Shown piece by piece: positions 36,907-61,860 of a DNA stretch of 64,000 bases (its first letter is position 1; the number at the start of each line of letters is the position of its first letter). The notes below the pieces were generated by a model. That model saw nothing but the letters and a program-made list of their open reading frames with translations. It searched no databases and was not told the DNA's origin. The DNA is from Verrucomicrobiota bacterium (lineage in GTDB: Bacteria > Verrucomicrobiota > Verrucomicrobiia > Verrucomicrobiales > Verrucomicrobiaceae): positions 62,001-126,000 of the forward strand of contig JAFLEI010000006.1 of NCBI GenBank assembly GCA_017301975.1, written 5' to 3'. The translations under genes and the position numbers were made by a program.

Positions 36907-37017
36907 GAGTTCTTCGGGAGTCGGTCTCTGTGTGACGACCTGCCGGACAGTTTCCCACGAAATGGCGGTAGTTTTGTCCGTTGCCGCATGTCGCTGGTCC
37001 GTTATGGTGGCAGTCCC

Positions 37018-37659
37018 ATGGCCGCCAAAACAACACGCATTCTTCTTGCCGATGACCACGCCGTGGTCCGCAACGGCTTCCGCATGATCCTCGCTGCGCA
37101 GTGGGACATGGAAGTCGTGGGGGAGGCCGCCAACGGACGGGAGGCGGTGGAAAAAGCCATCGACCTTCAGCCGGACATCGTCGTCCTGGATGTGACAATG
37201 CCGGAGCTCAACGGCATCGAGGCGGCGCGGCAGATCACGAAGGCGGTGCCAAAGGCGCGCATCCTCGCGCTCTCCATGCAGAAGGACTCCGTTTACGTGC
37301 GCGAAATGCTGCGTGCCGGGGCCAATGGCTATTTGTTGAAGGACAGCAACGAAAGCGATCTTCTCTCCGCCGTGCGGGCCGTCGCCAATGGCAAAGGGTT
37401 TCTCAGCCCGGAGGTCAGCGATGCCGTGCTGGACGACTATCGCAAGCATGTCACCAACCCCATCGATCTCCTCTCACCCCGCGAACGTGAGGTGTTGCAG
37501 ATGATTTCTGAGAGCAAGACCAACAAGGAGATTGCCTCCGTGTTGAACCTCAGCGTGTACACGGTGGAGGCTCACCGGGGCCGCATCATGGAAAAGCTCA
37601 ACCTTCATTCCATCGGCGAACTCGTGCGCTTCTCCATTCGCAATGGACTGATTGACTAA
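37018..37659 (+). CDS. NarL/LuxR-type response regulator
   Basis: A 213-residue regulator (from ATG 37018; the ATG at 36988 adds ten residues). The receiver domain has LLADDHAVVRNG, phospho-acceptor Asp58 in VVLDVTMPELNG and LKD as the switch Lys. The C-terminal LuxR helix-turn-helix is LLSPREREVLQMI, TNKEIASVLNLSVYTVEAHRGRIMEKL. The kinase that should pair with it is probably the NarX-like protein at 39893, separated by a transporter gene. It is divergent from a TonB receptor and overlaps the next gene by 8 nt, so the cluster is likely one transcript. Confidence 0.92.
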   Translation: MAAKTTRILLADDHAVVRNGFRMILAAQWDMEVVGEAANGREAVEKAIDLQPDIVVLDVTMPELNGIEAARQITKAVPKARILALSMQKDSVYVREMLRAGANGYLLKDSNESDLLSAVRAVANGKGFLSPEVSDAVLDDYRKHVTNPIDLLSPREREVLQMISESKTNKEIASVLNLSVYTVEAHRGRIMEKLNLHSIGELVRFSIRNGLID

Positions 37660-39892: not shown

Positions 39893-41203
39893 ATGTCGTT
39901 CACCTTTCTTCGGATCACTGAACGCTATGTGCTTCGCGTTCTCGCCCTGGGCTTCCTGCTGGTCATGGTGCTGCTGGGCACGGCCGGGCTGATTGCAGTT
40001 CGCCAGAGCCAGGGCATCCGCCACGGGGTCGAGCAGATGGCGCGGGACCAGTTTCTCATCGCCCGTCTTCGCCAGGATGTGCAGTCAGAGGAAAACACCA
40101 TGACGGGAGTGCTGCATCAGTTCGCCCAGTTCGAACTCAAGCGCGCGGATCTGGCCCGGCTGCTGCAGGAGCTGGATGAAAGCGACCGCCAGATCTCCCG
40201 TCTGGGGCCGGAGGTGAGATCCTTGGCGGATGCTGAACTGTGGGCGGATCTGGACAGGGGCGTCAAAGCTTTCAGCCAGGAATCACATCGGCTGCTGGAA
40301 AGCCAGGAGCCGGTGCAGCGTGACAAACTGGAGACTCTCTTCCTCCATCACGGCCGGGTCGTCGAGCTGGTCAACAAGCTCATCAAAAGCAGCTCTGAGC
40401 ACCTCACCCAGACCGAGCATGCGCTGGAGCAGCAGTCGCAGGATCTCAGCGATGACTCCACCCTCCTGCTCGGTTCCAGCACCATCCTCGCTGCCATCTG
40501 TGCCATGCTCACCATCGCCTTCGCCCGTAAAAGCATCCAGCGCATCCGCTGGCAGTCCGAAGAGCTGAGCCGTGTCTCCTGGCACATGCTGCAAACCCAG
40601 GAGCAGGCCGCACGCCGGTTTTCTCATGAGCTGCACGATGAGCTCGGCCAGTCCCTCGCCGCCGTGCGCGCCAATCTCACCAAAGGTTCCACCCAGGATC
40701 TCCCCTCACTCCGCGCCGACTGCCTCCATCTCGTGGACGAATCCATCGCCAACGTCCGCGAGCTCTCCCAGCTCCTTCGCCCTGTCATTCTTGATGACTT
40801 CGGTCTCGATGCCGGTCTGCGCTGGCTGGCGGAAAAATTCGGCCAGCGCACTCGCATGAAGGTGGACTACGACTCCGACTTCACAGGACGACTTTCAGAC
40901 GAGACGGAAACACACCTCTTCCGCATCGCCCAGGAGGCCTTCACCAACATCGCCCGCCACGCCGAGGCCACGGAAGTGACAATCAGCCTCCGGCATCGGG
41001 ATCAGTCCATCCGTCTCACCATTGAAGACAACGGCAAAGGCCTGCCCACTCAGAACGACGATATCATCTACAGTCCCAGCCTCGGCATGGTCGGCATGCG
41101 CGCCCGTGCCCGCCAGTCCGGCGGCGAGCTCACCGCCAGCAGCAGGCAGCCCCACGGCCTCCGCATCGAAGTCGTCGTCCCCCTCCAAACCCCCACCGCC
41201 TGA
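39893..41203 (+). CDS. NarX-like sensor histidine kinase
   Basis: A 436-residue inner-membrane kinase. The sensor part is two membrane helices (residues ~17-40 and ~190-215, STILAAICAMLTIAFA) flanking a mostly helical periplasmic region of the four-helix/CHASE3 kind. The HisKA_3 dimerisation domain has RRFSHELHDELGQSLAAVRANL with phospho-His245. The ATP-binding domain has ETHLFRIAQEAFTNIARHAEA and LTIEDNGKGLP, LGMVGMRARA. HisKA_3 kinases pair with NarL-type regulators, which fits the regulator at 37018. The SulP-CA gene lies between the two. The signal sensed is unknown; carbon-dioxide or pH status is inference from context. Confidence 0.9.
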   Translation: MSFTFLRITERYVLRVLALGFLLVMVLLGTAGLIAVRQSQGIRHGVEQMARDQFLIARLRQDVQSEENTMTGVLHQFAQFELKRADLARLLQELDESDRQISRLGPEVRSLADAELWADLDRGVKAFSQESHRLLESQEPVQRDKLETLFLHHGRVVELVNKLIKSSSEHLTQTEHALEQQSQDLSDDSTLLLGSSTILAAICAMLTIAFARKSIQRIRWQSEELSRVSWHMLQTQEQAARRFSHELHDELGQSLAAVRANLTKGSTQDLPSLRADCLHLVDESIANVRELSQLLRPVILDDFGLDAGLRWLAEKFGQRTRMKVDYDSDFTGRLSDETETHLFRIAQEAFTNIARHAEATEVTISLRHRDQSIRLTIEDNGKGLPTQNDDIIYSPSLGMVGMRARARQSGGELTASSRQPHGLRIEVVVPLQTPTA

Positions 41204-41221
41204 TCCCCGCACGCTCCCCCC

Positions 41222-41860
41222 GGAGGATAGCCGTCCCGGCTGTCATCGGAAGACAGAGTCTCCGGCCTGTCCTCCCCACCCACGACTCCACCTCACCCAA
41301 CGCCCTCCCCACGGAGGATAGCCGTCCCGGCTGTCCACGGAAGACAGCGCCTCCGGCCTGTCCTTCCCACCCACGACCTCACCTCACCCAGCGCCCTCCC
41401 AGCGGAGGATAGCCGTCCCGGCTGTCATCGGAAGACAGAGCCTCCGGCCTGTCCTCCCCACCCACGACTCCACCTCACCCAACGCCCTCCCCACGGAGGA
41501 TAGCCGTCCCGGCTGTCATCGGAAGACAGAGCCTCCGGCCTGTCCTCCCCACCCAAGACTCCACCTCACCCAACGCCCTCCCTGCGGAGGATAGCCGTCC
41601 CCGGCTGTCATCGGGAGACAGAGCCTCCGGCCTGTCCTTCCCACCGAAGACCCCACCTCACCCATCGCCCTCCCCGCGGAGGATAGCCGTCCCCGGCTGT
41701 CATCGGGAGACAGAGCCTCTGGCCTGTCCTCCCCACCCAAGACCCCACCTCACCCAACGCCCTCCCCGCGGAGGATAGCCGTCCCGGCTGTCCACGGAAG
41801 ACAGCGCCTCCGGCCTGTCCTTCCCACCCAAGACTCCACCTCACCCATCGCCCTCCGCTC
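41222..41860. repeat. Seven tandem 91-92 bp repeats with hairpin units
   Basis: Seven units start near 41222, 41313, 41404, 41495, 41586, 41678 and 41770, with 91-92 bp period. Each contains GGAGGATAGCCG and, ~45 bp on, GGCCTGTCCTCC (near-complement), plus inner arms AGCCG/CGGCT and TGTC/GACA, so each unit can fold into a long hairpin. Differences between units are mostly single bases. The array fills nearly all of the 729 bp between the kinase and dabA. No spacer differs between units, so it is not CRISPR. The minus strand is open over several units but looks like a repeat artefact. Confidence 0.9.
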
Positions 41861-41932
41861 CGCCCACCCTCCACACGGAAAACATCCACCCTCGCCCCCG
41901 CGCTCCGTAGCGGAATACCCCCTCACCAAGGG

Positions 41933-44905
41933 ATGGCGCAGCACCCAAAGAAGCTCTTAATTGCCTTTCGACCTTTGATGAGCACCCGTTCCCATGTCAG
42001 TCCTTGCGGCTGTCACCAATCCACCCTGGAGACTCACCCGGCGGAGGGGTGCCTCCAGCACCTTCGCCGGGTGGTGGGTCATGCGGCCCGCTTCCTGCCG
42101 GTTCAGGGGCCCCTGGGGGTGTTTGTGCACTACAACACGCTCCGTTCATTCCAGCACCGCAGCTTTGAAGAGGCCGTCCTTGAGGGGGCCGCTCTCTACA
42201 AGGCGGAACCCTACCTCTCCGAAGAGGCTTATCAGTCGGACCGGGCCCGGGGCCGCATTCTGGATGAAGACATCGACGCGGTTCTCAGCCGCGAACCCAA
42301 CGCAGAAATTCTGCCCGGCAGGCTCAGTCGGCGGGAACTCAGGCGCGCGATGCTCATCCCCGGTGTGCGCCGGGTGAATGGCATCAACATTTCCTGGCAG
42401 TTGGAGGAGGGCGGCTGGTTGGACTCCTTTCGCAATGACCTCCCTCCTTCCTCCGCCACCGCACTGCGCGGGGATTCTCCGCAGGCGCTCTGGCATGCCT
42501 GTCTGGCGAGCGTGCAGCCCCAGCCTGCTCCACCTCCTGTCATGCCAAAACGTCCGCGCGAATTCGTGCTGGCACTGCACGGCATCGACATGGATGCCCT
42601 CATTCATCCGCCTCTCATCCGCCTCACCGCGGCCTATCTCGATCAGGGCATCGCCTACTGGCCCATGCCGCATCGGGACAAAGGTCTGCTCAGAGCCGCG
42701 CGCACGATCATGCCCCAGGCCTTCGCCATTTTCCCCGACCACCTCAGCGGGGTGCGCGCCGAATTTCTCCGCCAGGAGGCGGCAGGCATGGATGCAGAGG
42801 CCGTGGTCCTGGACGCTCTCGAACAGCTCGGCGTGCCTCTCGCCCAGTGGGAGGACTTCGTCACAGAGGAGCTGCTCGCGCTGCGCGGCTGGGCGGGCAT
42901 GGTTCACATGCTTGAGCAGGATGCCGCTCTCGCGCCGCATGACCGCGTGCGCTGCTCCGTCATGGAGTTTCTCGCCCTGCGCCTCACCTACACCGTGGCG
43001 GCGCTCAAGGACATCGCTGGAGGCACCTCCGCATGGCGCTCCACGCCGGTGCCTGTGCCGCGCTTTGATCCCCTGACCCATGTGGCGCGCGTGTTTGATG
43101 TGGTCCAGCTTCTCGGCATCAGCAGCAGGGAGCTTGCCGCCTTGGAGAACGGAGAGGTGGCTCGTTTGGTCCAGGAAATCCTCTCCAGTCACGAGATCGA
43201 ACGCCGCCGTCTGCTGCATCTGGCTTACGAGCGCAGGCATGAGCGCCTTGTGTTGATCCCGCTGGCCAAACATCGCAACATGCCGTGCGTCGTGCCAAGC
43301 AGCAACAGGCTGGTCGCCCAGGTGCTCTTCTGCATCGATGAGCGCGAAGAGTCCATGCGGCGCGCTCTGGAGGAGGTCGACCCCGCCATCGAAACGGTGG
43401 GTGTCGCGGGATTCTTTGGCGTGGCCATCAACTATGCCGGTATTGATGATGCCGGCGGCGTCTCTCTCTGCCCTGTGGTGATCGATCCGCAGCACACTGT
43501 GCGTGAGGTGCCGGTGGAGGAGCATGCGCACTTGCACAGGCGTCGTCAGGACCTCAGACGCGTATGGGGTGGCGTGGCGCGCAATGGCTTCATCTCCTCT
43601 CGCACCTTGGTTCGTGGCTGGTTCAGCACCGCATGCCTCGGCTTCCTGAGCCTCTTCCCGCTGGCGCTGCGGGTCCTCACTCCTCTGGCCTTTGGGCGGT
43701 TCACCAAATTTCTTAACAAGGCGTTCCTGCCGGAGCCCAGGACCGAGTTTGCCTTCATGCAGGATGACGCCGCCTCGCGGGATGCCACCTCGGGTCTGAT
43801 GCGCAGCTTCACCACCGAAGAGCAGGCGGAGTGTGTTTATCAGGTGCTCGGACCCGCCGGGCTGGACAAGGGTCATGCGCGTCTTGTGGTCATTCTCGGC
43901 CACGGTTCCACCAGCCTGAACAACCCCTACGAGTCGGCCTACTGCTGTCAGGCTTGTGGCGGGCGCACAGGCGCGCCAAACGCACGCCTCTTTGCCCTCG
44001 TCGCCAACCGCCCTGCGGTTCGTGAGGCCTTGCGCGCCAGGGGCGTTGTCATTCCTGAAGACACCTGGTTTATTGCAGGCTGCCACGACACCTGCAACGA
44101 GGACATTCAGTTCTTCGACTTGGACCTCCTGCCTGAGACCCACTGCGGGGATCTCGTTCGCGTCCATCAGGCGCTCGACAAGGCGCGCACGCTCAATGCT
44201 CATGAACGCGCACGACGCTTTGAAGCGGCGGGTCATTCCATCTCCCCGGAATCCAGCTTGAGGCATGTACAGGAGCGCGCGGAGCACATCGGGGAGCCGC
44301 GTCCTGAATACGGCCACTGCACCAACGCCGTGGCCTTTGTCGGCCGTCGTGAGGTCACCAAAGGGCTCTTCATGGACCGCCGGGCCTTTCTCGCATCCTA
44401 CGATGCCACCAAAGATCCCAGCAACGAAGCGCTGGCTCAGGTGGTCCGTGCCGCGCTCCCGGTTTGTTACAGCATCAATCTCGACTACTACTTCTCCGCA
44501 GTTGATAACGACGTGTACGGCAGCGGCACCAAGCTCCCGCACAACATCAACGGCCTGCTCGGCGTGATGAATGGTTATCAGGGCGATCTGCGCACGGGCC
44601 TGCCTGCGCAGGCGGTCGAAATCCACGAACCGGTGCGCATTTTGTTCGTCGTCGAGACCACACCTGCGCGTCTGATGCAAGTCATCAGGGCCGACGATGA
44701 ACTCAACGAAATCGTCTGCAACCAGTGGATTCGTCTCGCCACCATGGACCCGGATGACGGCCACGTGGAGGTGTATCGCGAGGGTGTTTTTGAAAAGCTC
44801 GCGGGCAATGAAGAGCCGCTTCCTGTGGCTTCCAGCTCTCAGGCTTGGTATGAGGGTAAAAGGGAACATCTCGCTCTGGCCCGGATCGAACCAAGGGCTG
44901 CGTAA
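41933..44905 (+). CDS. dabA: DabA (DUF2309) inorganic-carbon uptake protein
   Basis: A 990-residue cytoplasmic-face protein of the DUF2309/DabA (MpsB) family, which with a NuoL-like subunit forms an energy-coupled CO2/bicarbonate accumulation complex. The beta-carbonic-anhydrase-like site is intact: Cys467 and Asp469 in FCIDEREESMRR, His657 in GHGSTSLNNPYESAYCCQ and Cys672 in the same segment, matching the spacing of Cys351, Asp353, His524 and Cys539 reported for Halothiobacillus DabA2. Early QGPLGVFVHYNTL is family-typical. ATG 41978 is an alternative start. Two NuoL/M-like genes follow at 26 and 16 bp. Confidence 0.92.
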   Translation: MAQHPKKLLIAFRPLMSTRSHVSPCGCHQSTLETHPAEGCLQHLRRVVGHAARFLPVQGPLGVFVHYNTLRSFQHRSFEEAVLEGAALYKAEPYLSEEAYQSDRARGRILDEDIDAVLSREPNAEILPGRLSRRELRRAMLIPGVRRVNGINISWQLEEGGWLDSFRNDLPPSSATALRGDSPQALWHACLASVQPQPAPPPVMPKRPREFVLALHGIDMDALIHPPLIRLTAAYLDQGIAYWPMPHRDKGLLRAARTIMPQAFAIFPDHLSGVRAEFLRQEAAGMDAEAVVLDALEQLGVPLAQWEDFVTEELLALRGWAGMVHMLEQDAALAPHDRVRCSVMEFLALRLTYTVAALKDIAGGTSAWRSTPVPVPRFDPLTHVARVFDVVQLLGISSRELAALENGEVARLVQEILSSHEIERRRLLHLAYERRHERLVLIPLAKHRNMPCVVPSSNRLVAQVLFCIDEREESMRRALEEVDPAIETVGVAGFFGVAINYAGIDDAGGVSLCPVVIDPQHTVREVPVEEHAHLHRRRQDLRRVWGGVARNGFISSRTLVRGWFSTACLGFLSLFPLALRVLTPLAFGRFTKFLNKAFLPEPRTEFAFMQDDAASRDATSGLMRSFTTEEQAECVYQVLGPAGLDKGHARLVVILGHGSTSLNNPYESAYCCQACGGRTGAPNARLFALVANRPAVREALRARGVVIPEDTWFIAGCHDTCNEDIQFFDLDLLPETHCGDLVRVHQALDKARTLNAHERARRFEAAGHSISPESSLRHVQERAEHIGEPRPEYGHCTNAVAFVGRREVTKGLFMDRRAFLASYDATKDPSNEALAQVVRAALPVCYSINLDYYFSAVDNDVYGSGTKLPHNINGLLGVMNGYQGDLRTGLPAQAVEIHEPVRILFVVETTPARLMQVIRADDELNEIVCNQWIRLATMDPDDGHVEVYREGVFEKLAGNEEPLPVASSSQAWYEGKREHLALARIEPRAA

Positions 44906-61784: not shown

Positions 61785-61860
61785 GGGGCATTAGCTCAGT
61801 TGGTAGAGCGCCTGCATGGCATGCAGGAGGTCAGCGGTTCGAACCCGCTATGCTCCACCA
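61785..61860 (+). tRNA. tRNA-Ala (GGC)
   Basis: A 76-nt cloverleaf with encoded CCA. The acceptor stem GGGGCAT pairs with ATGCTCC (one G-U). The D-arm is TAGCTCAGTTGGTAGAGC. The anticodon stem CCTGC/GCAGG encloses loop ATGGCAT, giving anticodon GGC (alanine). The T-arm is AGCGGTTCGAACCCGCT. The 5' end lies directly after the Sel1 terminator. Confidence 0.97.

Follow-up and report, generated by a model that had tools for sequence, protein, structure and literature searches.

A tandem array of seven inverted hairpin pairs between a histidine-kinase gene and dabA in a Verrucomicrobiota bacterium: a probable REPIN cluster beside a conserved dyad

In the present study, we analysed a window (the whole stretch of 64,000 nucleotides) from the draft genome of a Verrucomicrobiota bacterium, in which a tandem array lies between a histidine-kinase gene and dabA. 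Genes that share one orientation in the window encode a LuxR-type response regulator (36988-37659), a fusion of SulP with carbonic anhydrase, the histidine kinase itself, the product of dabA and two proteins of the proton-antiporter type. The array begins 18 nt after the end of the kinase stop codon (41203) and consists of seven units of 91-92 bp each. The preliminary description had placed seven repeats of about 91 bp directly upstream of dabA, filling nearly the whole gap between the two genes, and both statements hold, as the features in Table 1 and the output of Tandem Repeats Finder indicate (41214-41856, period 91, 7.0 copies, 92% matches, score 1065). The spacings between successive unit starts are 91, 91, 91, 91, 92 and 92 bp.

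Table 1. Coordinates of the features of the kinase-dabA region (positions are those of the window)
Feature	Position	Strand	Remarks
Histidine kinase gene (HisKA_3, HATPase_c)	39893..41203	+	upstream of the array
Unit 1	41222..41312	+	REPIN core 41222-41275 and C-rich tail
Unit 2	41313..41403	+	REPIN core 41313-41366
Unit 3	41404..41494	+	REPIN core 41404-41457; one edit from unit 1
Example REP, unit 3	41404..41426	+	GGAG and hairpin GATAGCCG-TCC-CGGCTGTC with one T.G stem pair
Example inverted REP, unit 3	41434..41457	-	GGAG and GGA-loop hairpin on the minus strand
Unit 4	41495..41585	+	REPIN core 41495-41548
Unit 5	41586..41677	+	92 bp, extra C in first hairpin; REPIN core 41586-41640
Unit 6	41678..41769	+	92 bp, same extra C as unit 5; REPIN core 41678-41732
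Unit 7	41770..41860	+	REPIN core 41770-41823; repeat end near 41856
Conserved dyad, AATACCCC-N8-GGGATGG	41914..41936	+	23 bp, outside the array; candidate control element of dabA
dabA (PF10070)	41978..44905	+	start picked from relatives

Each unit is composed of an inverted hairpin pair of 54-55 bp (GGAG followed by stem-TCC-stem, and then its mirror image) and a C-rich tail of 37 bp. In a typical unit, the tetranucleotide GGAG at the 5' end is followed by the first hairpin, GATAGCCG-TCC-CGGCTGTC, and by the second hairpin, GACAG-n-GCC-TCC-GGC-CTGTC, and the pair is closed by CTCC or CTTC. Thus a conserved tetranucleotide precedes an 8-bp stem with a TCC loop, which is the build of a REP, and each unit holds two such REPs in inverted order, as a REPIN does; the tag of the inverted REP is GAAG instead of GGAG in three of the seven units (units 2, 5 and 7). 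All seven units are distinct, with pairwise edit distances from 1 to 11. A 23-base hairpin pattern searched with up to three mismatches gave five matches in the window, all of them within the array (mean of 100 shuffles, 0.00), and units 5 and 6 were missed because each carries one extra C.

The folding analysis confirmed the hairpin-forming potential that had been proposed for the units. As RNA, the array reached -251.2 kcal/mol against a mean of -202.7 for 20 shuffles (z -6.7). A form with two hairpins was the minimum in six of the seven units on the plus strand and in four of the seven on the minus strand with RNA parameters, and unit 3 adopted it on both strands with DNA parameters. Hence, of the long internal dyad described earlier, the dyad symmetry of each unit stands, but in the RNA and DNA folds it is actually made of two short hairpins in inverted order. 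Furthermore, the hairpin family is under base-pairing constraint, as judged from sequence comparison. When the loop was fixed as TCC and the closing pair left free, while the search pattern set the remaining stem positions wholly or in part, the closing pair was complementary in 90 of 90 distinct contexts (G-C in 62, C-G in 20, T-A in 6 and A-T in 2) and the T.G pair of the stem was retained in 81 of them; many of the contexts are copies related by descent, and the counts cannot be read as independent events. When none of the five central bases was fixed, 94 contexts were obtained, with the loop TCC in 90 and TCT in 4, and a complementary closing pair was present in 18 of 18 distinct cores.

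The same hairpin is dispersed over many loci, which is a further property of REPINs. Comparison of the array DNA with its own genome gave nine matching places, the array itself among them, and the hairpin pattern (up to three mismatches) gave 36 matches, of which five fall in the array and 31 are spread over 15 further contigs, while its reversed control had 0, so that the genome search suggested in the preliminary description did reveal further copies. REPINs are mainly extragenic elements; by a crude ORF test, 17 of these 31 hairpins lie between genes and 14 inside predicted ORFs, several of which are short and doubtful, and a preference for extragenic sites does not follow from these counts. 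Outside this genome, the array DNA had matches in eight of 36 relatives (seven of the same genus and one of another genus), and a scan of named genomes with an exact 23-mer found 43 stretches, all in MAGs of Verrucomicrobia, Akkermansiaceae, Prosthecobacter or Haloferula; no match to the array DNA was found in plasmid records. Scattering of the unit at unrelated loci without effect on transcription had earlier been named as the observation that would speak for an ordinary dispersed repeat. The scattering itself, the first half of that statement, was found in this genome, in relatives and in named genomes. Among the 43 named loci, related tandem hairpin arrays with a TCC/GGA loop (at least 2.5 copies) were observed in one MAG, Loclat bin-20621 (L114:1208-1538, L109:2061-2374 and L146:210-658), with periods of 72-109 bp and up to 3.6 copies.

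The tails, with 22-24 C and 2-4 G in 37 nt, are near-identical among the units. A tail pattern with up to three mismatches matched nine places in this genome, namely the seven units and two sites beside REPINs on contig C12; a similar tail was present on one copy in the relative G023, and few copies outside the array carry it. The tail moves with the element. We also considered that it could be an independent dispersed repeat, and this was rejected for this genome because all nine matches adjoin REPINs.

A link to a transposase was also found. The Y1_Tnp family (PF01797) was matched 20 times in this genome and 124 times over a set of eight genomes, and the flanks of 41 of the 124 loci, hand-picked and mostly of the partial-match class, were inspected. 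Family hairpins stood on both sides of the gene in four of the 41 loci (contig C76 of this genome, and G002, G012 and G013), a proportion that does not come from a random sample, since the four positives had already been seen near family matches before the choice. The four flanked proteins formed one clade, with a support of 100/100, in the tree built from the 35 loci whose frame could be read, and none of 500 shuffles was as low. All four contain the PNHVH and YIGxNP motifs, that is, the HUH motif and catalytic tyrosine expected of a RAYT, and score 28.0-34.0 bits with Pfam Y1_Tnp (cut-off 23). In NCBIfam they match REP_Tyr_transpos (NF047646) alone, at 58.0-65.6 bits, and as this is below the cut-off of 80, we term them RAYT-like. 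A RAYT-like gene flanked by the same REPs, as in these 4 of 41 hand-picked loci, is also a feature of REPIN systems. No match was obtained at E 0.1 when the transposases were compared with PDB sequences by phmmer. The gene on C76, the cognate gene of this genome, lies near a contig end and has an apparent frameshift (by-eye comparison with L186 of G002), and as a working enzyme it is putative. No strict family hairpin was present at L009-L016, the eight Y1_Tnp loci of this genome that were inspected first. At L203, two copies of a related GTAG hairpin were detected at the tolerance applied, both on the same side. The preliminary description had suggested that the units might bind a protein, and this is likely in the sense of a putative transposase and in no other sense. 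Many of the 41 loci bear GGAG- or GTAG-tagged hairpins of several families. As a separate observation, the loci L190-L222 come from genus genomes with many Y1_Tnp genes, often with a GGAG- or GTAG-tagged hairpin family of their own, and L218 has four tandem REPs at a spacing of 66 bp.

Among known systems, ordered REPIN clusters have been described in P. fluorescens SBW25 as tandem repeats that include flanking sequence; the largest cluster there holds four REPINs and one REP, and the same genome has tandem arrays of 12 REPs (PMC3116915). The present array is alike in having two inverted REPs per unit, flanking sequence included in the tandem copies and a family that stands beside a particular RAYT, but it differs from what is described there in its Verrucomicrobiota host, its seven REPINs, its short 8-bp stems and its TCC loop (PMC3116915). 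It also shares with the REP/BIME and TnpAREP system of E. coli a tetranucleotide tag, a hairpin with an imperfect stem and inverted pairs in tandem. However, the tag is mostly GGAG here and GTAG in E. coli, and the imperfection is a single T.G pair in the first hairpin instead of a two-base bulge (PMC8266576). The GTAG REPs of prokaryotes include those of Opitutus terrae, so REPs had already been reported in the phylum, and they are likewise tagged palindromes near RAYT genes (REPtrons); in contrast, the present family has all four Watson-Crick closing pairs, and the string 'ggag' occurs 0 times in the main text of that paper (PMC3733652). Among the titles and abstract openings listed for REPINs and RAYTs, for REPs and BIMEs in relation to Rho and mRNA stability, and for repeats of Verrucomicrobia, no report of this hairpin family was found, and one may still exist. 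The elements of the array are of an already known kind (REPIN).

Taken together, we are confident that the array represents seven REPINs in an ordered tandem cluster. The insertion of one REPIN with its tail into the kinase-dabA gap would have passed through a hairpin of single-stranded DNA on which the transposase, an HUH/Y1 enzyme, acts; unequal recombination or replication slippage would then have amplified the inserted copy in place. The single edit between units 1 and 3 and the common inserted C of units 5 and 6 fit amplification in place.

The same gap was then compared in relatives. dabA or a relative of it is present in 42 of 48 genus genomes, the closest other dabA being 83% identical (the genomes searched were all of other species). 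Among 30 dabA loci, one of them the present locus, a near-complete kinase adjoins dabA in G012, G013, G002 and G045, and kinase remnants lie beside it in G021 and G023; read by eye, the array is absent from all six of these gaps, and none of the 29 other dabA loci contained a strict family hairpin. In the four relatives with a near-complete kinase, similarity to the left flank ends at 41187-41221 (41221 being the end of the stretch compared) and resumes at 41894-41895. Since these four have the kinase-dabA order without the array, the array is peculiar to this genome within the set compared. The gap of G023 (L079), where the kinase looks degraded, holds a different inverted repeat, CCCAGGGTC...GACCCTGGG.

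A dyad that is conserved among the relatives follows the array and stands 41 nt ahead of the likely dabA start codon. With small variations allowed, it is present in 28 of the 30 dabA loci, and the two remaining loci (L091 and L107) start inside dabA at a contig end. The exact form occurs once each in 23 of 47 genus genomes and not in the other 24 (control pattern, 0), and all 23 copies are directly upstream of dabA; some of the 24 genomes carry a variant, for example G001 and G012. The arms co-vary in some of the 28 loci (CCCTT/AAGGG, CCCG/CGGG and CCCC/GGGG). When two substitutions were allowed in a less strict scan, matches also appeared within genes (for example in L091, L095, L096 and L107), and we attribute these to chance. 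These observations make the dyad, rather than the array, the likelier control element of dabA, where it may be a binding site or an RNA element. A search of 41100-42100 gave no sigma-70-like promoter, and the role of the dyad, be it promoter, operator or RNA element, is therefore inferred. The longest dabA ORF opens at ATG 41933, at the end of the dyad. In many relatives the dabA match starts near residue 16 or an ATG stands at the aligned place, and in G023 the match runs from residue 2; ATG 41978, not 41933, is most likely the start. A shorter similar dyad (ACCC...GGGGATG or alike) was also observed on the other strand upstream of the gene divergent from dabA (L090, L092, L098, L099 and L102-L105). 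From its sequence, the divergent gene of L090 resembles a SulP transporter, which suggests one regulator for dabA and the SulP-like gene in that locus.

The dispersal of the unit, its place beside a RAYT-like clade, the four relatives without the array and the conserved dyad downstream do not support a role dedicated to dab. The array is probably incidental to dabA and of little effect on it; the likely control site of dabA sits downstream. The likeliest side effect of the array is predicted at the 3' end of the kinase mRNA; protection of this mRNA, or polarity before dabA, is possible.

A regulatory function of the array in cis was nevertheless weighed. The hairpins could guard the kinase mRNA from 3' decay while the C-rich tails load Rho, so that the kinase and dabA are expressed separately. 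REPs of E. coli were reportedly found by Newbury in 1987 to stabilise mRNA; Rho termination occurs at BIMEs, and Rho sites are C-rich. The strong RNA folding (z -6.7), the C-rich and G-poor composition of all seven tails, the position of the array between two genes, 18 nt past the kinase stop, and the conserved dyad ahead of dabA agree with such an insulator. However, six relatives have a kinase or its remnant beside dabA without any array, the tail composition accompanies the element elsewhere too, and with no sigma-70-like promoter found in 41100-42100, separate transcription of dabA is likewise only proposed; we consider this explanation, the foremost functional alternative, unlikely. A broader version of it assumes that the hairpins belong to a Verrucomicrobiota superfamily of REPs and that the RAYT clade of this superfamily recognises the tag, the loop and the shape instead of the stem sequence, in line with the kept TCC/GGA loop and a closing pair in all four Watson-Crick forms; the copy at dabA would have been amplified and recruited as an insulator that loads Rho and so separates the kinase from the carbon pump. 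Such a scenario is speculative and, in our opinion, quite improbable. Hairpins upstream of dabA might also recall an array of intrinsic terminators or attenuators controlling this gene, but 0 terminator-like sites were found in 41100-42100 (0.3 in shuffles) and no Rfam family matched around the array at gathering score, which makes it extremely unlikely. Over the whole window, the only Rfam match at gathering score was a tRNA at 61785-61857; with E up to 1, two sub-threshold matches on the minus strand, HOTTIP_1 and RAGATH-24, appeared in 41200-42000 and are taken as chance.

Palindromic units at regular spacing are also reminiscent of a CRISPR-like or other spacer-bearing array. The 37-nt 'spacers' are near-identical and part of the repeat, and this candidate, with practically no chance of being right, was rejected. 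Finally, the draft assembly comprises 95 contigs, and several copies of the family are close to the end of a contig (for example on C10, C49 and C76), as might be expected if repeated short reads had been assembled wrongly. The seven units differ from each other, however, by the edit distances given above, and the array is internal to a contig of 216,702 bases, so that an assembly artefact is very unlikely; as the genome is a draft, the true number of copies may not be exactly seven.

Overall, the REPIN cluster described here indicates that an array can be conspicuous and stand ahead of a gene for carbon uptake without necessarily having a regulatory role. In addition, it links a Verrucomicrobiota hairpin family to a transposase clade, and it led to a better candidate for the control of dabA, the 23-bp dyad with its single exact copy upstream of this gene in 23 of 47 genus genomes.
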